Part shown: positions 1 through 53,962 of the stretch, one piece after another
How the letters are laid out: each line of letters opens with the position of its first letter
How positions within the stretch are numbered: the stretch's first letter is position 1
DNA from: Spiroplasma chinense
GTDB taxonomy: Bacteria; Bacillota_I; Bacilli_A; Mycoplasmatales; Mycoplasmataceae
Direction of reading: 5' to 3'
DNA length: 64,000 nucleotides
NCBI RefSeq assembly: GCF_008086545.1
Contig: NZ_CP043026.1
Span: 930,001-994,000 of the forward strand
The notes under the pieces: generated by a model
Databases searched by the model: none
What the model was told of the DNA's origin: nothing
The model's input: only the letters and a program-made list of their open reading frames with translations
Made by a program: the position numbers and the translations under genes

Positions 1-937
1 CTTTATCATCCTTTGACATACTAGATTTAACTTCAAATAAATTATAATTATCAACTCTAAAATCGTATGGACTGGTTTTTTTAATTTGACTCTCTCATTT
101 AAATTCTTCAAATTTTAAAGACCTTACCTTAGATATATCTGTAAATTTTTTAAGTTTATTAAAGTTCTTTAAAAAAATACTGAATAAGTATTCACCCAGA
201 AATCCAATTGTTTCATTTATAGTTTTTTCGATAGTACCCTCATCTATAGTTACTTTTTCATCATTTTTATCACCAAATAGTACATTCAAAAAAGGCATTA
301 ACTCTCTATTAGAATTAGCAGCACCTTCAAATGACTTAGTTTCGGTAGTTTTCTTCTTTTTAAATTCTTCTACTATCAATAAAATATTTGCTTTTTCTTT
401 TTTATCAGTCTCTTTATTTAAAGAGTAAAACAGATATAAAGTGAACAATAAATCATAACAAGCTCTAATCATAAAAATATTTTCTTTACTTTTAGCAAAA
501 CTTGTAATGCAATTCCAAAGATAATCCATATTGCCGCAAAAATATTCTATAAAATTATTTGAATTTTTAAATTTATCAGAAAATTTAAAAACAATATTGT
601 TATTCACTCATTGCTTACCAAAATCTATTGCTGTATTAAATACAAAATCATTTGGTTTTTCAATACATCCAAAAAGCAAAAGAACCCTCAAATACTGACT
701 TCATGCAGATCAGGAAAGTTGTTCATTGAATCCTTTTACAATTATAGTGCATCCCTTTTCATTGATTTCTTTACCTGTAATTTTTATAACCTCTAATTCT
801 GATAAATTATAACTTTTAAATTTTTTAAACATAGAAGTCAATGATGTATCTATATTTCATCATTTACAAGAATAATTGTCATCTAACCCATTGTTCTTCA
901 ATCACTTTTTAAAATTCATTACATTTGTTATATTCAT
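1..937 (-). CDS. PD-(D/E)XK nuclease, DUF4420-like (C-terminus beyond window)
   Basis: Partial gene; its 3' end lies left of the window. With TGA as Trp the frame is open from ATG at 937 through position 1. Near the visible end it reads ...GFLGEYLF..., then about 40 residues later SPYDFRVDNYNLFEVKSS. The pairing of a hydrophobic GE-helix with D-(about 10 residues)-ExK is the PD-(D/E)XK nuclease pattern seen in DUF4420 proteins. It starts 2 nt after the stop of the upstream C5 methyltransferase, so the two are translationally coupled: a methylase plus nuclease pair. DUF4420 proteins are known partners of MORC/MutL and Z1 proteins in restriction-like operons, and both occur 4 kb upstream here. 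The nuclease fold is a good call; DUF4420 membership is from motif memory only. The next gene to the left is predicted to be AIPR-like, but cannot be seen. Confidence 0.7.
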
Positions 938-2250: not shown

Positions 2251-2269
2251 ATATTTACTCCTAAAAGTA

Positions 2270-2299
2270 ATTCTAATTTTTTTTTTTTTTTTATTGCAA
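2270..2299 (-). promoter_or_regulatory. Promoter of MTase 1 with poly-A spacer
   Basis: On the minus strand TTGCAA (2299-2294) and TAGAAT (2275-2270) are separated by 18 nt consisting of T, 16 A and T. The segment from -10 to the ribosome site, TAGAATTACTTTTAGGAG, is identical to that before the M.SssI-like gene. A homopolymer in a promoter spacer is a known mollicute phase-variation device; here it is inferred from sequence only. Confidence 0.65.
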
Positions 2300-2330
2300 G
2301 TGTAATATGTGATTAATTAAAGAAAAAAAT

Positions 2331-2361
2331 TAAAATAAAAAAAGCAACTTAAGTTGCTTTC
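2331..2361 (-). terminator. Terminator after HNH nuclease gene
   Basis: Hairpin AAAGCAACTTAAGTTGCTTT followed on the minus strand by a T-rich tail. It lies 9 nt after the HNH gene stop and before the MTase 1 promoter, so the MTase 2-HNH and MTase 1-nuclease units are separate transcripts. Confidence 0.8.
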
Positions 2362-2370
2362 GTAAAGTAT

Positions 2371-3495
2371 CTAAAAAACATTTGTTGTTTTATTTCTCAT
2401 TTCAAAATAATAATTTTTTTTGTCACTAAAAAAAGGTCTTTGTATCACCAAATAATTATTCAACAACCCTAATTCTTTAATTCTTTTCCCCTCATCATTT
2501 ACCACTTTTAATACCCCATTCACATAAGTAAATGTATGTTTATCGAATTTTCTGTGCAGCTCTTCTGGTAATGGGATAAAATTCTCTGGATCTGAAATCA
2601 TTGCCAAATATTTATTACACTCATTTACATTATTTGTATATAAACATTCTTCTATTTTATCTCTTAGCATATAATACTCATATATATGACACTTTTGATA
2701 ATTTCAATTATCGTTTCAAGAAAAACCAAAAGGACAAGGAATATTTTGACCAGTGTAATATCGAATAATATTAGTACTATATTTATTTCTTTCATTTCTA
2801 GCTATTTTTTCAGCTTCTTTTTCATAATCACAATATTTTTTATAATAATCCTTAACTTGTTCCATATAAATTTTAAATTGACCTGAATCCTTGCTCTCTT
2901 GCATAAAAATAAATAGTTTTTTTATGACTTCATTTAAATTTGTGAATTCTTCCAAACTAATTTTTTTCGCATTTATCTCATATAAATCAAAATAATTTGG
3001 TCTCTTTGAGATTAAATCACCTATTAAAACAGCAAAGTTTTTTATATTTCCACTATAATCAAGTATCATTTCAGCACTTCAGGGATTTTTAACCTCCCCA
3101 GAAGGATTACTACCTTTCAATACAGTCAAAATATTTTTAATTGTAGACCTATATTTATTTCTATTATTTAAAAATTCATTAACAATTTCAATTTCATTAG
3201 AATTCAAATGACGAATTTCATTATGATTTTGGTTTTTTCTTGGAATTTGTTTTAGATTTAATTCTTCGAAAAGTTTTTCTCTAATTTTAAATATATCCTT
3301 TTTTCCATCAAATCAACTTGGGGTAGTGCTTAAATCTAACCATAGTTCATGAAATGTAATTTTTCAATCTTTAATGATTCCAAATTTGTTAGAGATTATT
3401 TTTAACACTCCTTTGAATTTGGCTGAATTTGTTGCAGAAAAATTCCTCCTAATTATAGGCAACTCTACAACATACAAATCACTTTGTTTACTCAT
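2371..3495 (-). CDS. HNH endonuclease, putative partner of the M.SssI-like methylase
   Basis: 374 aa when four or more TGA codons are read as Trp. The C-terminal third carries a plausible HNH core: KCHIYEY (His about 267), DPENFIPLPEELHRKFD (Asn about 305, His about 314), then a F-x-x-x-NG strand. This spacing and the LH-x-x-FD signature match HNH_2-type restriction nucleases. The N-terminal 250 residues are not recognised. Its ATG overlaps the end of the upstream methyltransferase by 8 nt (ATGAGTAA), which is strong evidence for coupled synthesis as a restriction-modification pair. If the methylase is CpG-specific, the nuclease would be expected either to cut unmethylated CG-containing sites or to need another function; that is inference. 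No own ribosome site is needed because of the overlap. Confidence 0.7.
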
Positions 3496-4633
3496 TACTA
3501 TCTATCCTTTCAAAAATAGCTTTCAAAACTTCTATTGAAATTGAATTTCCACAAACAAAAATTTTTTGTGTGTCTGTTAAAAATTCAAACTCATCAATCT
3601 TTTTATAGTCTTCATCATCAAAACCCATATACCTGAATGACTCTAGTGGACTCATTCTTCTAATAAATCCTTTATCATAAATTTTAATTCTTGAATTTGC
3701 TCCGCTTGCTGTTAAAGTTGGACCTGTAAAGTCAGGATCATACACATATGCTTCAGAGTTGAATTTTGTATAATTTATTAAACTGCATTTTTTAATATTT
3801 GATTTTGTAAGAGAAAATTCAGAAAAATCATATTTTTCTAAATTAGTCATAATAAATTTATCTTCTACATTCTTTTCTAAAATATCGTTTAATTTTCCAG
3901 GTTTACTTTTTCCGACAGGTAATTCTATTTTTTTATTTCTAGAAGAAATCATAAAAACTCTTCTTCTTGCTTGAGGAGATCCAAAGTCTGCAGCATTTAA
4001 TATTCCAATAGAATTTTTATAACCCATGTTTTCAAGTTTAATTAATCATTCTTTCAATTCTAATTCATTTGTTTTATTTAGCAAGGCTGGGACATTTTCC
4101 ATGAGAAGAATTTTAGGCAAATTATTTTTAGGTGTATTATCTATAGCTTTTTCAATCTCTCACAATAACCCAGATCTTGTCCCTGAATTCTTTTTCATAC
4201 CTTTTTGTATCCCTTGTTGTGATAAATCTTGACAAGGAAAAGAATAAGTTAAAATATCAATAGATTCTAAGGTTCTTTCATGTAAAGTTCTAACATCAAA
4301 AATGTTACCTTCTTCTTCAGATTTTTTAACAGCAGAATATATAACATTCAAGATATCTTGACTTTTTCGATTTCAAAAATTTTTTGAAACTGGTTTTTTA
4401 GAATCTCAAGATAAGCACTTAGAATTCAAATAATCTATCACTTCATCCCTGGGAACATTGTCTAGAACATTTTTTTTAGAAAAATCATTATTTATAATTT
4501 GATACATTACAATTGCTGGTACATATCACTCTGCTAATCCTGCAATCTCAAAATTATTACCAACAACACTTTTTAAAGCTCTTCTTTGTGAACCTATACC
4601 TGCAAAAGCTTCAAATAGTCGAATTTTTTTCAT
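3488..4633 (-). CDS. M.SssI-like DNA cytosine-5 methyltransferase (MTase 2)
   Basis: 381 aa, complete C5 methyltransferase: FAGIGS (about 10-15), SFPCQDLSQQG (catalytic Cys about 134), GTRSGLLWEIE, LLMENVPAL, PQARRRVFMIS, and CGNSISIEVL at the end. Along its length it matches M.SssI (CpG methylase of Spiroplasma sp. MQ1) as I recall that protein, including AEWYVPAIVMYQ near the N-terminus and the target-recognition stretch YDPDFTGPTLTASGANSR. Similarity within the recognition region makes CG the likeliest target; this is inference from remembered sequence, not an alignment run. The start ATG at 4633 follows AGGAG. The stop overlaps the HNH gene start by 8 nt. The promoter has the same poly-A spacer layout as MTase 1. 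Confidence 0.93.
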
Positions 4634-4653
4634 TTACTTTTCTCCTAAAAGTA

Positions 4654-4683
4654 ATTCTATTGTTTTTTTTTTTTTTTTTACAA
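4654..4683 (-). promoter_or_regulatory. Promoter of MTase 2 with poly-A spacer
   Basis: Minus strand: TTGTAA (4683-4678) and TAGAAT (4659-4654) with an 18-nt spacer of A15 followed by CAA. The plus-strand T-run is 17 nt (4663-4679). The 18 nt after the spacer are identical to the MTase 1 promoter. Change in run length would change spacer length and hence promoter strength. Confidence 0.65.
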
Positions 4684-4703: not shown

Positions 4704-4739
4704 CAAAAAAAACATGAATTATTATTATAATTCATGTTT
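4704..4739 (-). terminator. Terminator after Z1 gene
   Basis: Ten-base-pair hairpin AAACATGAAT...ATTCATGTTT followed on the minus strand by eight T. It separates the HNH-MORC-Z1 operon from the M.SssI-like unit. The rest of 4740-4890 holds nothing I recognise. Confidence 0.8.
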
Positions 4740-4890: not shown

Positions 4891-7023
4891 TTAACCCCTT
4901 GTTATACCTTTTACTTTATAATTCGGAAAAAATACAGAATATGCAATAGCATCTTCCTCAATTATTTCTCCTTCTCTCTTATAATTAAAATTATAAACCT
5001 GGATTATAACCTTATTCTTATTTTCACTATAGTAATCAATTTTTGAATCACCAAAGTATTGTGTTTCATCATTATAATCCACATCTTTATTAGCTCCTGA
5101 TGCATGAATTGTGAAACGTTGCTTTTCAGAAACAGAACGAAATGGTTTGTCTCTATTTTGTGGCTTCATCAGAATAACTCTTACTGGAAATTCCTTAAAG
5201 TTAGCTTCCGCTATTTCATATCTTGATTCTAAATTAATTTTTTTAAATATATAACTAGAAATATTTGATTCTTTTGTAAACTCTGTCAAGCTTTCATAAT
5301 CTTTATATTCAAATCTTCTGCCACCGAGTTCAATATTTTTAGATTGTTCTTCTACATTTTTATAGAACATTCTTTCTATTTCTTTTGTTGGATGTACCAT
5401 ATTTTGGTTTAATCAAGAAAAGATTCCAACTGGTTTATAGTTGGCAACATTTGGTCTAGTTATTTTTAAAGTTTCATCATCTAGTGAAAAGAAAATGGAA
5501 TTCATAAAACCTTCTACAGAAAGTTCTCCTGTTTCAATTCTATCTAACTTTTCTCAAAGATCATTTTCCAAAACTGAAATATCAAAAAATTCTTTAATAA
5601 GTCTTTCTATTATAAAAATTTTCATATATTTAAGAGTTTTTCCTCTATATCCAAATCATCTTGCTCTTTGCAAAATTGTATCTGCTTGATTTTTAGATTT
5701 AGCTGTTCTTGTCATATATGTTACTAAAAGATTTTTTAAAGTAATTCCTCTTCCAAGAAGATTAGAACCAATGTAAATTCTGAACCTTTGTTGTTTATTT
5801 TCACCGAAACGATCACCTTTGCTGTTTATTGAAAAGGCTCTTGTGTCTTCTATTATACCCAAAAAATCTTCTATAAATGCGCAATCCTTAGGATTGCTTT
5901 CATCAAGCTTTCTATTGTTAATCATTTCAAAACCAAGATTAATAAATTCATGATATGTTTTTTTCATTATAGAATTTGGGTCTTCTTCTAATTCTTCTGC
6001 AATTTCTACAATTTTATCTAAATAAATTCTTATTTTTTCTTTAAATTCATCATGATATCCAGTTTCTCTATCGGTATTTATAAGCATTTCAAAATATTTA
6101 TTTTTTGATTCTTCATTAATAAGACTTAAAGAAGCACACAAAAAATAACTTAAAGCTTTTTCTAAAGAAGGATTTATATCCTTGTTTTTAAATTGTTTTT
6201 CATCTAATGAATATAAATTTTCAAGTTCGTGCTCAGGAATTTCAACTAAGTATTTATCCGAATCTTCTCCATGAAAAGTTTCTAAACCACAGTAACCTTT
6301 TCCTGGTTTTGTTGTTCTAACAAATTTTGGAGATAATTCATCATTCTGTTGAATCAACATGTTTGCATATGGAGTCGCTGTTACAGAAAGATATGAAAAT
6401 TGTTCAATTTGATCTTTAATATCAGAAATTTTTTGATTTCACTTTGTTCTTGGTTCCTTGTTTGTATTTGCATTTCCATCTAAAGTACCTTGATCACCTT
6501 CATCATCAATTATAAGTATTCTTTTATCTTTAAAAATATCTTTATAATATGTAAGAATTGATTCTAAATTTGATAGGTGATTAATGTTTTTTAATACTGT
6601 AATTATGCTTTTTTTATCTTTTGATGAACTTAAAAATCTTCTATTACTTTCAACCCAGTCAGCTTTCCTATCAGCACCAAATTCATCAGAACTAAATATC
6701 CCACTAATTCTTCTTTTATTATTTTTAACATCCGAATACACTTCAGACACCCTATCTTTATTTTGACTCAACAATTCATTGTCAACTCCACCAATTAAAA
6801 ATACGATATCATACATATCAGAATCAAAAGCTTCTGCAATTAAACCAAGAAAATTAGAGGTTTTACCTGATTGAACTTTTCCAACTATTATCCCAGTTTT
6901 ACAGTTTGGTTTACCATCTTCTAATGTATCTTGTAAAATTTTTTTAGATTTACTTAAAATTTCATTTACTGCTGCCGCTCCAATTTCTGGTGTGTAAATT
7001 TCTATGAATCTATTTCTAAACAT
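4891..7023 (-). CDS. Z1-domain ATPase/helicase
   Basis: 710 aa after reading TGA as Trp. The motifs follow the Z1 family order: Walker A GKVQSGKT (about 48-55), Walker B-like IIDDEGDQ (about 171-178), SVTATPYAN (about 212-220), and the Z1 signature LQRARWFGYR (about 451-460), then MVHPT (about 542) in the C-terminal part. Z1 proteins are superfamily 2-like ATPases that occur with MORC/MutL ATPases, DUF4420 nucleases and cytosine methylases in restriction-like defence operons. ATG at 7023 is preceded by GGAGGATTAAAAT. It follows the MORC gene by 3 nt, so they are one transcript. It may remodel or translocate DNA for a partner nuclease; the partner is not shown by sequence. All key motifs are intact. 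Confidence 0.93.
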
Positions 7024-7026
7024 ATT

Positions 7027-8673
7027 TTAATCCTCCAAAAGATATTCGTTAATTTTGTTGGTAATAAGTAGAGGGTCTACTTTTCCATCTAATGATCTTG
7101 TTTTTAAATCTAATATTGCCGAAGCATAAGCTAATGAAAATTTTTTCATAAAAATTATAAATTCAGGTTCTTGAGCAAAAGGTTTTAAAAACTTGTGTTC
7201 TACAAATAAAGTAATTGAAAATAAACCTTTACTCTCGTTGATTATTGAAATAGTTATTCAATTTTTTGGATTAACTTTTTCAGAAACAAAGTAAGCAAAA
7301 CTTAATTCGTTATCTCCACTTTTATTAGTTATAACAGTATCCATAATGTTTGTATCTTTTTTATCACCATTATTGTCGTTTTTAATTGCAGTTATCAATT
7401 CTGAAGGAATTTCTGTTCCTTCATTATAATCTTTAATTACTTCTTCTACAGTTTTAACCTCTGAAGTTTTAAGCATTTTTTTAATTTCTTCATTTGCTTC
7501 TTTATTAAGTTTTGTATTAACTTTCTTAGCTCCTGATTCGTCAGACTTTCTTAATTGTGTTGCTCAAATTTTAAATCTTCCCACTTTTCTGTTTAAAAAA
7601 TCTATAAAAGCATCTTCTAAACCATCATCTCAACTAAAACCATCTTTAGCTTGATTTACCGGGAAACTGTCTACATCAATTTCTCCATAAAGTCTTTGAT
7701 AAACAAAAGAAGAAGCATCTCCAAAGATTTCTCTTGGTCTATAATTATCTTCATAACCACCGATGATTGCTCTATTTCTTCTAAATAATGTAAATCCAGC
7801 TTCCTTACGACTACCCACATCTCTAATTCCTACCAAAAATTTCACTAAGTGAGTTTCTCCTGCAAATTCAAAACTATCTTCAAAAGTTCCCACACATAGA
7901 GTTTCGTTATGAATTCCAGTTACTTGACCAGGTAGAATAGTTCTTGGTTTTACCTGAGTAAATTTAACTGCTGGAACTTTTTGCAAACTTTCAAATACAT
8001 TACCTTCAAAGTCACATCATACTCCATCTTTATTCTCAGCAAAAACTATCTGAATATTATTATTTCTTATATCTCTTCTATACATACCTGTAATCATTTT
8101 AGCAACAGTTTGTTTTTGTTTTTTTGTTGCAAATGGTTTTAATAGATCTTCTAGAACCAATTCTGTATAGTGAGCTGTTGCTTCCACTTCTGAAGTTTTT
8201 ATAGGTAAAGTGCTTGGATTACTTCTTTTTAATTCTTCAATATCCATTGTAACTGCATATTCTTTATTTGAACCCAATTGAGTAGATCTAATTGTTCATT
8301 TTTTACTGAATCAAGTTGCAGCTGTTTTCAAACCCATACCAAACTCATTTCTTCCTCCTTTTTTCACTGGAGGATTACCTAACACAACAGCTCTTTTAAA
8401 ATTTTCAATTTCCATACCGTATGCATTGTCTCTAATTTTGATAATAGAATTACTTTTATCATGACTATAAAGAACATAAATTTTAAGTTTGTAATCTTTA
8501 CCATTCTTTTTATAAAATTCTTTTAACTCTTCTTCATGCTCAAAATAACTTGCAGTTGAATTATCAACAAATTCAGCAAGTGCATAAGTTGGTTTGTAAC
8601 TTAATCTTTGATAAGTTGCATATATACTAGACTCTGGTCTAATATCTATCTCATTAATATTGTTGTTACTCAT
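7027..8673 (-). CDS. MORC/MutL-type GHKL ATPase of a Z1-linked defence system
   Basis: 548 aa. N-terminal GHKL ATPase: ALAEFVDNS (catalytic Glu and Mg-binding Asn about 34-38), RDNAYGM (about 81-87) and GRNEFGMGLKTAAT (about 107-120). It continues into an S5-like domain with GFTLFRRNRAIIGG (about 330-343), typical of MORC rather than of mismatch-repair MutL. The C-terminal 150 residues are charged and not recognised. The gene overlaps the upstream HNH gene by 8 nt (ATGAGTAA) and is followed 3 nt later by the Z1 gene, giving a tight HNH-MORC-Z1 operon. MORC ATPases clamp or compact DNA on ATP binding; in bacterial operons of this kind they are thought to act with Z1 in recognising foreign DNA. 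The role here is from family context. Confidence 0.92.
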
Positions 8674-9769
8674 TTTCTTCTAACTCTTTTCTATATACTT
8701 GTAAATAAATTTCTTTTAGTTTTTCTAAAGAATATTCAGGATAGACTTTTAAAAAATCTTCATTTACAACTTTTTTTGCTATAAATTCAACCATTTTACC
8801 TTGTTCTTCTTCATTAGATAAGTGTATCATTTTATGACACAAAGGACATAATGAAACCAAGTTAATCTTACTATCTAATGTTTTTTTAAATTTTTTTTGC
8901 ACTTTTAAGTGATAAGGGATGAAATGATGAACATCAAAATACATTATATCTAAACCATTCTTTATAAAAGTTTGTTTTTTTAAACAATTAATACACTCTT
9001 GATAATTTTTGAGATGTTCTTCTACTATCTTTTGATTTCTAATAAGTTTGTTTTTATGTATTAAATCAGTAATGTTCTTGTCATTAAAATCTTCAACTTT
9101 TAAATCACTTAAATCTGTTTCTACAAAATCGAATAACACATCTAAATCATTAAATGAAGTTAGTTGATTTTTTCCATTATAGTTAATTCTTGAATCCAGT
9201 TCTTTTATAATTTTTTTCAAATCTTTTGTCTTGTAATTATATTTTTCATCAATAGTTGCTTCGTTTTTACCAAAAGCAATTTCTTCAACTTCTTGGAAAG
9301 TAGAAATTCAATATGAAGAGTATGATTCACCATCATATCGTGTCAAAAAATCGTATAAATTTGCAGTTAAAGAGACTATATATTCTTCTCCTATAGAAAG
9401 CACTCCCAATGCAAAAATCATAGTATCCTTAACTAAAAATTTTTTGTATAGTTGAAGCCTTTTGTTATCATCATTATCATTTCCAGAATTTTTTATTTGT
9501 AAAAAATAAACTATTATGTCTTTGTCATCTTTTTTAAATCTAATAAATTTTTTGTTATTCTTTTTTTTATTGGATAATGCTGAATTACTACCATCTAAAA
9601 AAATTTCAGAGGGTTTTATTTCTTTGTATATTAGTTTTTCAGCTTCTGTTACAAATTCATCATAATGGATTTGTAACTTATCAAATTCATTATGATTCAT
9701 CATTTTAATTTCACCGTTAACTATATTTCTGTAAAGTTTTTCATTATTTTTTTTAACTGTGTCACTCAT
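8666..9769 (-). CDS. HNH nuclease-domain protein in the MORC-Z1 operon
   Basis: 367 aa. The C-terminal part has a zinc-stabilised HNH module: ECINC (about 258-262), DVHHFIPYH (His pair about 281-282), KINLVSLCPLCHKMIHL (Asn about 303, Cys-x2-Cys about 308-311, His about 316). The N-terminal 180 residues are mixed alpha/beta and not recognised. A clear GAGGAG ribosome site precedes ATG 9769, making it the first gene of the HNH-MORC-Z1 operon; its 3' end overlaps the MORC start by 8 nt. Position suggests it supplies or assists DNA cleavage. It is not one of the standard members of MutL-Z1-DUF4420-AIPR operons as I remember them, so it may be an added component. Confidence 0.85.
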
Positions 9770-9800
9770 AATTACTCCTCAATAGTAATATTTTATAATA

Positions 9801-9827
9801 AAAAAAACACTGCTACAGTGTTTTTTT
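9801..9827 (-). terminator. Terminator overlapping the MTase 3 stop
   Basis: Hairpin AACACTG-CTA-CAGTGTT flanked by A7 and T7, so it can act in both directions. The MTase 3 stop codon TAG lies in its loop. A fresh -10-like TATAAA follows before the HNH gene, so MTase 3 and the MORC operon may be separately initiated. Confidence 0.75.
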
Positions 9828-11117
9828 ATCTATTTTCAATAATTCTTCTTGAATATAAGAAACTACTTTAACATTTACAGAATTACCAAATTGTTTATAA
9901 CTGAAAAAATCTTTTCTATCTTCGCTAATTTCATTAAAAATTCTATAATTTTTTGGAAAACTTTGTAAATTAGCAGTTTCTCTTGGCGTTAAGTGTCTCC
10001 ACCCTTTTTTGTTATCATCAAATATTATAGGTATTTGAACCATAGCCACTAATGTAGGAAACTTTGTCGGTCTTCTACATCTTATTCCGCTTTGTCTTAA
10101 CTGTATAAAAGATTTTCTAATATCATTAATATCTTTACCAGCTTGTCATTCAAATTTTAATTCTCTTTTTTTTCAATTATGTACCTCATATTTGATTAAC
10201 CATTGATCGATGAAATCTTTATTATTTTTATAAATATTTCTCATATCTATAATATATTTTTTTCTTCATTCCGCTCAATCCGAAGGTATTCTATAACTTT
10301 TATTTAACTCATTAGCCCAAATAACAGGCAAAGTTCTACCTTCTGGTTTTTTTACATTAATTAAAAATTCATTTCATGCATCAAAAACATCAAGTAAATA
10401 TTGATTTTTCGGATCTGATGCTAAGAAATATTTTTCATCCACATCTGATTCCAAGAATTTTTCTTTTATAAAACTAACTATTTCATTAGCGTTCATATTT
10501 GAGAGTGGATTCATTTTTTTTCTGTCTTCTAAAGAAATATGTAAAAACTCAGTCTTGGCCTTTTCCGGACCCACATAAATACCAGGTATAAAGACTCTGT
10601 ATCTTTCCTGAGGAATTCCAAATTCATGTGGTGATAAAATTAATGGATTTTCAGGTATTAAATAACCTATTTCTCTTAATTTATCATTAATTATTTTTCA
10701 TGTTTTACCGTTATCATGATTAACAAGGTGTTTTACATTTTCCAACAATATATATCTTGGAGTTCTCTTACTTAAAATATTTGCAATGTCAAAAAACAGA
10801 GTTCCTCTAATTTCATCTAGAAAACCTCTTTTTTTACCAGCATTAGAAAATGTTTGACAAGGGAAACCTGCGAATAAAAAATCGTGTTCAGGTACGTTTG
10901 TAGCTTCTTCATCAACATCTCTAATATTTATAATGTTTTTATCGCTTATATTAAAGTTATTAGTATATGTTTTTATAGCGTATTCGTCAATTTCAGATAC
11001 AAATACACATTCAGTTGTCATATTCATATCGTTTGCTACTTTATTTATTGCATTATGGAATCCACCTATTCCGGCAAATAAATCAACAAACCTGATTTTA
11101 CCGTTATTTTTTTTCAT
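9813..11117 (-). CDS. DNA cytosine-5 methyltransferase (MTase 3)
   Basis: 434 aa, complete C5 methyltransferase of a different branch from MTases 1 and 2. Motifs: DLFAGIGGF (12-20), GFPCQTFSNAG (Cys 87), ILLENVKHL (about 123-131), FGIPQERYRVFIPG (about 170), WRHLTPRETANLQSFP and FGNSVNVKVV near the end. The recognition domain contains SGIRCRRPTKFPTLVAM; specificity is unknown. ATG 11117 follows AGAGGTAGGA, 24 nt downstream of a TATAAT box at about 11146-11141. It is the methylase nearest the MORC-Z1 operon and probably protects host DNA from it. It lacks the poly-A promoter spacer of the other two methylases, so it may be constantly expressed while the others switch. Confidence 0.95.
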
Positions 11118-51468: not shown

Positions 51469-51846
51469 TTAATAAAGATTTGAAATCAAATACTTGAAAA
51501 TAGTGACTTTTTTGCCAAACAATAGAATTTGATTATTGTTTGGTAAAATACTGTCGTATTTTATATTTTTTATTATTAACATACCCTCTTTGTATTCTAA
51601 ATTTGAAGAAGATATAGTTTCATATCCAGAAACATATTCAATTTTTAAGTACTCTATTTCATTTATATTTATTTTATCTGGCATTATTACATAAGCTACT
51701 TTAACGGTTTTTTCTTCTTGTATTTCAACTTGAACAAATACACTACCATAATATATTTGAGTTTTTTCAAAAAATAAAAGTGATATTATGGTTATAAAAA
51801 TTAAAATAACTGATATAAATAATAATTTATGATTAACATTTTTCAT
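51469..51846 (-). CDS. Single-TM accessory protein of the C39 exporter
   Basis: 125 aa: N-terminal membrane anchor (LLFISVILIFITIISLLFF, about 8-26), then an extracytoplasmic beta-rich domain. ATG overlaps the transporter end by 14 nt, and it carries its own GAGG. Coupling suggests a membrane-fusion-like or chaperone role for export. Not recognised as HlyD: no long coiled coil is seen. Confidence 0.65.
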   Translation of the reverse strand: MKNVNHKLLFISVILIFITIISLLFFEKTQIYYGSVFVQVEIQEEKTVKVAYVIMPDKININEIEYLKIEYVSGYETISSSNLEYKEGMLIIKNIKYDSILPNNNQILLFGKKVTIFKYLISNLY

Positions 51847-53872
51847 TTAATACCTCCAATTTGTCTTCAAAGAATTGCTGATAATGACTATTGTGATCTG
51901 ACATTAAAATGATGCTGTTTTTCTTTAATTGAATAAATTGGTCAATTAAATAGTAAGCAGTTGCTCTGTCAACATTACTTAAAGGTTCATCAATTAAGTA
52001 AATATCTTTTTGAGTAAAGAATGCCGACATGAAGTTTATTATTTGTCTTTGTCCTTTGCTTAAATTTGTTCCATTATCTATAATTTCTTTTTCAACTTCT
52101 ATATTGTTGCTTGCTAAAACTTCAAAAAATCTTAATTTTTTGAAGAGTTCTAAATCTATAGTATTTTTAAATTGTTGAATATTTGACCAAACAGTTCCAT
52201 TAAATAAGTAATCGTATTGACCAATAAAAAGAACTTTTTCTCTATAATCTCTTTTATCAACTTTTTTAAAATCTATTTCATTAATTTTTATAGATCCTTC
52301 ATATTCATTTACATATCCAGTCAACAATTGTAAAAGACTTGTTTTTCCACTTCCACTTTTTCCATATATAAAAGTGTTCTTTTTAAATTCAAAATTAATA
52401 TCACTTACTACTCTATTTTCATTTTTATATTTATATAAATTTTTTATTTGTATTGATTTAATTTTTTCTACCTTCACAATTTCTTCTTTATTAAGTTTTT
52501 TCTCATCAAGTATAAATTCTAATTCATTCATAGACAATTTAATTTCTTGTCTATTTAAGATTAGAGAAAAAATAGTTTGAGAAAAAGAACTTATATACAT
52601 GGAAATAGAAATATAAAATAACAGTTCATTAAAGTCAAATTTTTTTGCCAAAATAAAGTTTGCAGATAAATAAAAAATCAATAAATAAAATAATCTACTT
52701 AAAACTTTTACAATCACTTCATTAATACTTTGAATATTATTTATTTGATTTTCATTTTCAAAGTTATCATTAAATCCATTTGCAACTTTTACATTAAATA
52801 CTTTTTCTAAATTCTTTGTACGTATTTCAAAGTTACCATCAAGTAACTCTCTAAATATTACAGAGAACTTAATACTGTCTGATAACTTTTTAACTTGTTT
52901 CTCTTTTATAAAGGTATAAGAAATATATGAAAAGAATATTGTTAATATATTTTCAAGTATTACCAATAACAAAATTACATTTGATATAAAAGTTAACATA
53001 ACCAAAGACATAACAAATAATAAAAATTGAGATGGTACCAATAAAGTACTGTTAACAATAAATTGAGAAAGTGAACCAATATGCATTATTTTTTTACTTC
53101 ACTCTTCTTTTTTTAGAGCACTGTATTTTTCGTATTCAATAGATATTAATTTTTCACTAAACATTTCAAACATTTTTTTAGCAATTGAAGAGCGAATATT
53201 AAATATAAGTTTTTCTATTATTGAACTTATAAATATTTGAACTATAAAGATTAATATGAAAGCTAAAAAAATGTATTGTAAATTTGATTTATCAACTATC
53301 ATTAAGTTTTTGGAATATACCTTAATAAAAGTATTTGAAACTAAAATTATAATGTTACACAAAAAAGAAACTACAAAAAATATAGAAATTAAAACAACTT
53401 GATCTTGAAGAAAATATCATCACTTCATAAACGAATTAGTTTTAAATTGATATTTTTTAAATTTAACAGCTATTCCAAAGTAACCATTAAATTTTTTTAT
53501 AAATTCATTTTTATCAATTCACTTCATGTCATTTTTACTTGGATCTGCAACTAAAAACGCTTTTTTTGTTTTTTTATAAATTACTACATAATGTTGTAAA
53601 TTTTCATCATTCATAACACTTGCAATAAGCGGTGTATTGAATTCAAAATCTAAAAACTCTTGATGAGTTGCTTGATATGTTTTGAATTCGATATTATATT
53701 TTTCTAACAAAACTTCAATATTATAAAAACTAAGTTCACTATCAGCAATAGCATTTTCAAACTTAATTTCTTCTATTGTTAAGTTTTTATTATGTAAAGA
53801 ATTAATTAACATAGCTGAAGTTGCAACTCCACAATCATTAATTCTTTTTTGTTTTAAAAATTTGTATTCCAT
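51833..53872 (-). CDS. Peptidase C39-type ABC transporter (leader-peptide processing exporter)
   Basis: 679 aa in one frame with TGA as Trp. N-terminal C39 peptidase: KQKRINDCGVATSAML (catalytic Cys about 14), LQHYVVIYK (His about 93) and LVADPS (Asp about 109). Then six TM helices at about 170-450. C-terminal ABC ATPase: Walker A GKSGSGKTS (about 493), signature LSKGQRQ (about 588) and Walker B IYLIDEPLS (about 606). Such proteins cleave after a GG-type leader and export bacteriocins or signal peptides. No candidate leader peptide gene is seen beside it. Its promoter shares a bipartite element with MTase 3. Confidence 0.92.
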
Positions 53873-53925: not shown

Positions 53926-53962
53926 AAAAAAAAAAAAAAAAACAAGAATAAATCTTGTTTAT
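53926..53962 (-). terminator. Terminator with 17-nt T-run
   Basis: Minus strand hairpin AAACAAGATTTATTCTTGTTT followed by an uninterrupted run of T (A-run 53926-53942 on plus). It ends the rimP-nucleotidyltransferase transcript. Confidence 0.8.

Follow-up and report, generated by a model that had tools for sequence, protein, structure and literature searches.

Candidate phase-variable poly-A promoters before two restriction-modification operons of Spiroplasma chinense

The DNA analysed here (hereafter, the window) is a 64,000-nucleotide stretch from Spiroplasma chinense, a mollicute with a 1.37-Mb genome in which UGA encodes tryptophan. Two C5-cytosine DNA methyltransferase genes, MTase1 and MTase2, are each followed by a gene for a nuclease-like partner (Table 1). 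The catalytic motifs of both methyltransferases are intact, with matches to PF00145 (E-values 2e-52 and 6e-57) and a PCQ motif in each. The partner of MTase1 starts 2 nt past the MTase1 stop and carries a PD-(D/E)XK-like C-terminal domain (NOV_C PF13020, 34.6 bits versus a cut-off of 22.1). The gene for the MTase2 partner shares 8 nt with the end of MTase2 and encodes the invariant HNH residues H270, N305 and H314. Its predicted structure (pLDDT 86) was matched to the HNH part of VcaM4I with a Z-score of 11.3; the structure search matched the HNH part only, and the N-terminal half was without a listed match. VcaM4I is presumably a modification-dependent enzyme. We do not conclude that the MTase2 partner cuts methylated DNA: next to its own methylase, such a nuclease would be self-destructive. 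Judged from gene order, each methyltransferase appears to head an operon with its nuclease-like gene, with which it would be co-transcribed.

Table 1. Genes, promoter elements and hairpins of the two restriction-modification (R-M) operons, with the adjoining gene block
Feature	Position	Strand	Basis or detail
MTase1 nuclease-like partner	1..937, cut by window edge	-	whole gene 386 aa (L043:3501-4661); NOV_C PF13020, gene order
MTase1, C5-cytosine DNA methyltransferase, 436 aa	940..2250	-	Pfam PF00145, E 2e-52
MTase1 leader inverted repeat	2255..2270	-	contains Shine-Dalgarno AGGAG 2258-2262
Shared 18-mer TAGAATTACTTTTAGGAG, MTase1 copy	2258-2275	-	MTase1 upstream region
MTase1 promoter -10 hexamer TAGAAT	2270..2275	-	sequence reading
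MTase1 promoter A16 tract	2277..2292	-	inside 18-nt spacer 2276-2293, reading T A16 T
MTase1 promoter -35 hexamer TTGCAA	2294..2299	-	sequence reading
Putative intrinsic terminator ending MTase2 operon, insulating MTase1 promoter	2340..2361	-	-9.3 kcal/mol, z -3.9
MTase2 nuclease-like partner, 374 aa, HNH	2371..3495	-	HNH residues, gene overlap, model
MTase2, C5-cytosine methyltransferase, 381 aa, M.SssI/M.MpeI type	3488..4633	-	homology
MTase2 leader hairpin TTACTTTT-AGGAG-AAAAGTAA	4634..4654	-	Shine-Dalgarno in loop
MTase2 promoter -10 hexamer TAGAAT	4654..4659	-	sequence reading
MTase2 promoter A17 tract	4663..4679	-	spacer 4660-4677 (18 nt), reading A15 CAA
MTase2 promoter -35 hexamer TTGTAA	4678..4683	-	sequence reading
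Terminator hairpin and U-run upstream of MTase2 promoter	4710..4739	-	-11.9 kcal/mol, z -5.4
Z1-domain helicase-like gene	4891-7023	same as R-M operons	
MutL/HATPase-like gene	7027-8673	same as R-M operons	
HNH gene	8666-9769	same as R-M operons	
Third C5 methyltransferase gene	9813-11117	same as R-M operons	

MTase2 is a candidate CpG methylase of the M.SssI/M.MpeI family. It matches M.MpeI over residues 2-378 (E 6e-79; PDB 4dkj/8c56) and is 64% identical to an enzyme of genome G008 which we take to be M.SssI. The MTase2 partner is in turn 49% identical to the protein adjoining that M.SssI-like gene, in whose promoter no tract was found. Homology to CpG enzymes is the basis for expecting genome-wide methylation by MTase2. 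CpG depletion was examined as a possible trace of earlier CpG methylation: the observed/expected ratio of 0.36-0.40 in the source genome fits, but does not discriminate, given 0.18 in the species with the M.SssI-like gene and 0.21-0.88 in relatives that lack a close MTase2 match.

Adjoining the two operons is a block of four genes in the same orientation (4891-11117); it partly resembles MzaB/MzaC (PADLOC), and no homopolymer was found in its promoter. A GmrSD protein is encoded just outside the window (L043:1374-3434) and makes, with the block and the R-M operons, a defence island. In most relatives (L199-L216) MTase1 stands in a different system, preceded by a PLD/NgoFVII-DEAD helicase of ~1000 aa and followed by a GmrSD-type DUF262/HNH protein of ~830 aa and a 220-aa protein, with a candidate phase-variable promoter between helicase and methyltransferase. 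This gene set is possibly an undescribed multi-gene restriction system.

The initial annotation had placed a nearly all-A, 18-nt spacer between the -35 and -10 hexamers of both methyltransferase genes. This is confirmed: runs of T16 (2277-2292) and T17 (4663-4679) on the forward strand give A16 and A17 on the coding strand, and the hexamers are 18 nt apart in both promoters. The own-genome data therefore do not display two different states. An identical 18-nt segment reaching from the -10 hexamer to the ribosome site had also been described, and TAGAATTACTTTTAGGAG is indeed an exact match, the longest between the two upstream regions; 300 shuffled pairs yielded at most 14 nt. As these segments are identical despite only 39% identity between the two proteins, the putative switch of MTase2 probably arose as a copy of the adjacent MTase1 promoter.

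Three homopolymers longer than 8 nt occur within the window, of 16, 17 and 17 nt. The genome as a whole holds 22 A/T runs of at least 10 nt and 18 of at least 14 nt, and those 18 are all 15-17 nt long; these lengths are taken from assemblies and may be in error by one. The poly-A tracts before the two methyltransferases are not a product of chance. The third long run of the window (53926-53942; A17 on the forward strand, T17 for a reverse-strand gene) stands between a hairpin and a gene for a C39-peptidase-like transporter (51833-53872), and may be another tract promoter or merely a terminator tail. A scan of the region for -35/-10 consensus pairs returned 23 promoter-like sites against 20.8 in shuffled sequence. 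In the absence of enrichment the consensus alone is weak evidence and was left unused; the promoter assignment is carried instead by conservation across species.

For this comparison 298 genomes of the order were searched with MTase1 and the DNA upstream of each orthologue was read. MTase1 orthologues are widespread in the family (52-63% identity), and a profile scan with the MTase1 family alignment matched relatives including Mesoplasma seiffertii, M. grammopterae and Williamsoniiplasma lucivorax. Before 13 of the 19 family orthologues, TTG[C/A/T] is followed directly by A16-18 and then directly by the -10 hexamer; in the window the MTase1 tract comes after TTGCAAT. The tract-bearing orthologues span four genera, namely the window's own (g1), g2, g3 (including W. 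lucivorax) and g5 (including M. grammopterae), and their -10 hexamer, which is poor in the Williamsoniiplasma clade (TAACCT/TAAACT), sits 19-49 nt before the ATG. Most intergenic sequence around MTase1 diverges between orthologues, and the poly-A spacer is kept in these 13. Six orthologues are without a tract, which is therefore dispensable for expression. Runs of at least 14 A within 70 nt were found before 14 of 20 methyltransferases and before none of the 162 other ORFs (at least 150 aa) of the same loci (Fisher 1e-16, indicative only, the orthologues being related).

The -35/-10 spacing among MTase1 orthologues takes the values 15, 16, 17, 18 and 19, read from one assembly per species, as expected from snapshots of a slipping tract. 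Four close relatives with near-identical flanks have runs of 18 (G006), 17 (G002), 16 (G019) and 16 (G013). Tract presence is scattered on the methyltransferase tree, with six changes, a patchy distribution as expected for a switch that would be gained and lost. A single origin is unsupported by this scatter, which is partly owing to weak inner branches. In G017 an intact A16 promoter stands before what looks like a decayed MTase1-like start.

Homopolymer-spacer promoters were then counted across 60 family genomes. The pattern TTGN-A12+-N0-9-TANAAT occurs 24 times, versus 3 for a reversed-pattern control, and the poly-T form TTGNN-T11+-N0-8-TANAAT 131 times, again versus 3; the poly-A form was also found in other families in an order-wide search. 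The downstream genes mostly encode lipoproteins and membrane proteins, and in the source genome a number of the other runs form poly-T spacers upstream of lipoprotein genes. Phase variation in mycoplasmas classically acts on lipoproteins. The second recurring class is that of modification genes: MTase1 orthologues, MTase2, DndC, and an N6-methyltransferase with an EcoRI-like nuclease. The initial annotation had pointed to poly-A promoter switching of mycoplasma surface lipoproteins; in this family one promoter type stands before the methyltransferases, lipoproteins and other modification genes.

Several individual loci may be recorded here. A DndC homologue of G015 (L110:1555-2982; E 6e-104) lies behind an A17 spacer promoter, for which phase-variable phosphorothioation is possible. 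An EcoRI-like restriction endonuclease and an N6-methyltransferase of G065 (L262:110-1466) follow a poly-T spacer promoter. The gene for a 90-aa protein is present in two copies in G017 (L117, L118), each behind TTGC-A16/17-TATAAT. Perfect T14-A14 junctions (TTTT..AAAA) recur at several genome positions in G018, G001 and G002.

Both methyltransferase promoters of the window have a strong terminator a short way upstream. An inverted repeat that includes or surrounds the Shine-Dalgarno sequence is present in all 15 leaders examined; in 11 the folding exceeds that of at least 95% of shuffles, and one more lies at the 5% line. Among 14 tract promoters, nine have a leader repeat ending in a U-run across the start site and five have an upstream terminator, the two being mutually exclusive in every case. 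The 5' arm of the leader repeat overlaps the -10 hexamer, so that a transcript from the tract promoter would lack this arm. In read-through RNA the terminator-like hairpin would be complete and the Shine-Dalgarno sequence masked. The arrangement, noticed post hoc and among related species, is suggestive of insulation for a switch that needs a tight OFF state.

No match to MutS_V was found in the source genome; the control was positive in 11 of 14 genomes. With MutS absent, runs of A16-18 should change length often, which is difficult to reconcile with the main alternative, that the tract is a fixed structural spacer of rigid or curved DNA which tunes RNA polymerase binding and is held in length by selection, with no functional switching. 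A fixed spacer would also give tracts near spacer length, as are all 18 in the source genome (15-17 nt), and a position conserved in 13 species. Nevertheless, hexamer spacing varies from 15 to 19 among the orthologues, and sigma-70 promoters ordinarily lose activity across such a range. Moreover, poly-T can replace poly-A within the same architecture, pointing to length rather than A-tract geometry, and the downstream gene classes match those of contingency loci. We regard a fixed spacer as unlikely.

It is far less probable that the runs are mere T-tails of opposite-strand terminators that lie before the methyltransferases by accident. Some long runs of the genome do adjoin opposite-strand hairpins; at the methyltransferases, however, the opposite-strand hairpin is 6-8 nt from the T-run and the true coding-strand terminators sit further upstream, for which reasons this explanation is rejected for these tracts. 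In addition, the flanking genes share one orientation there, and accident does not account for a tract upstream of the same gene family in 13 species. An artefact of sequencing or assembly is hardly credible: several platforms have most difficulty with homopolymers and exact lengths are accordingly uncertain, but such errors shift length by one or two and do not create a tract, and the same tract is present in independent genomes of 13 species, which refutes an artefact of presence.

We consider it likely that both tracts act as contingency (phase-variable) promoters, forming a vlp-like transcriptional switch of two R-M operons. This reading, put forward in the initial annotation, is supported on sequence grounds by the conservation of the tract before MTase1 orthologues, its lack before the other ORFs of the same loci, run lengths of 16-18 that differ between species, the operon layout, the terminators before each promoter and the absence of MutS. 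Counting against it are the six orthologues that lack the tract, the poor -10 of the Williamsoniiplasma clade and the equal 18-nt spacing of both window promoters. Slipped-strand mispairing in the A-run would add or remove A residues and alter both the distance and the turn between -35 and -10, to either side of an optimum near 17 nt. The entire operon downstream would be transcribed more or less as a result, with putative ON and OFF lengths. As a nuclease-like gene follows the C5-methyltransferase gene in each operon, methylation and restriction would go on and off together. Two independent switches would give up to four methylation states per clone, with the upstream terminators holding the OFF state tight. 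The target sites and the effects on gene expression are likewise putative. Very probably, the cells turn DNA methylation across the genome on and off at random.

A broader proposal, to which we give an even chance, is that DNA-modification operons of spiroplasmas and their kin (the conserved C5 methyltransferase system, a CpG methyltransferase, an EcoRI-like R-M system and a Dnd gene) are wired to insulated, lipoprotein-type homopolymer-spacer contingency promoters. A clone would then hold combinatorial methylation and defence states, and the switch would be a mobile module, the M.SssI-type CpG methylase having copied the promoter of its neighbour. Operon-wide transcriptional switching would spare the cell the risk of a nuclease left without its methylase. 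It would also account for the tight 15-17 nt range of homopolymer lengths in these genomes, and it predicts in which assemblies mixed methylomes will appear. Species of Spiroplasma and Mesoplasma thereby become testable models for phase-variable cytosine methylation, including that of CpG. A literature search of incomplete coverage returned no paper on phase-variable methylase promoters in Spiroplasma.

The promoters described here may be compared with several known systems. In Neisseria, a homopolymer between -35 and -10 sets the promoter strength of porA and opc; those spacers are poly-G or poly-C and the genes encode outer membrane proteins, unlike the poly-A R-M promoters of the window. 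The modA genes encode Type III N6-adenine enzymes and carry their repeats within the coding region. A DNA methyltransferase that switches at random, as proposed here, characterizes the type III mod phasevarions, among them modA of Haemophilus and Neisseria (PMC2667262) and M.MmyCI of M. mycoides capri (PMC3498834). M.MmyCI is a Type III N6-adenine enzyme with an AG repeat in its coding region, whereas the operons here are C5 and Type II-like with the tract in the promoter. The lipoprotein vlp genes of Mycoplasma hyorhinis switch through poly-A promoter tracts, according to PMC10502178, citing Citti and Wise (1995). They share with the methyltransferase promoters an A-homopolymer in the promoter and a mollicute host without mismatch repair; random ON/OFF transcription is shown for vlp and we infer it here, and vlp switches surface lipoproteins whereas here two R-M operons would be affected. 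The CpG methyltransferases of Mycoplasma agalactiae, M. pulmonis and M. crocodyli are phase-variable by intragenic frameshift (PMC9465063). They are of the same M.SssI/M.MpeI-like class as MTase2 and would have simple-repeat slippage in common with it, but their repeat, poly(G) or poly(GA), is intragenic, whereas a promoter tract would co-switch methyltransferase and nuclease. Known phase-variable methylases of mycoplasmas rely on frameshift or recombination; the switch proposed for the window would be transcriptional and would act on the whole operon.
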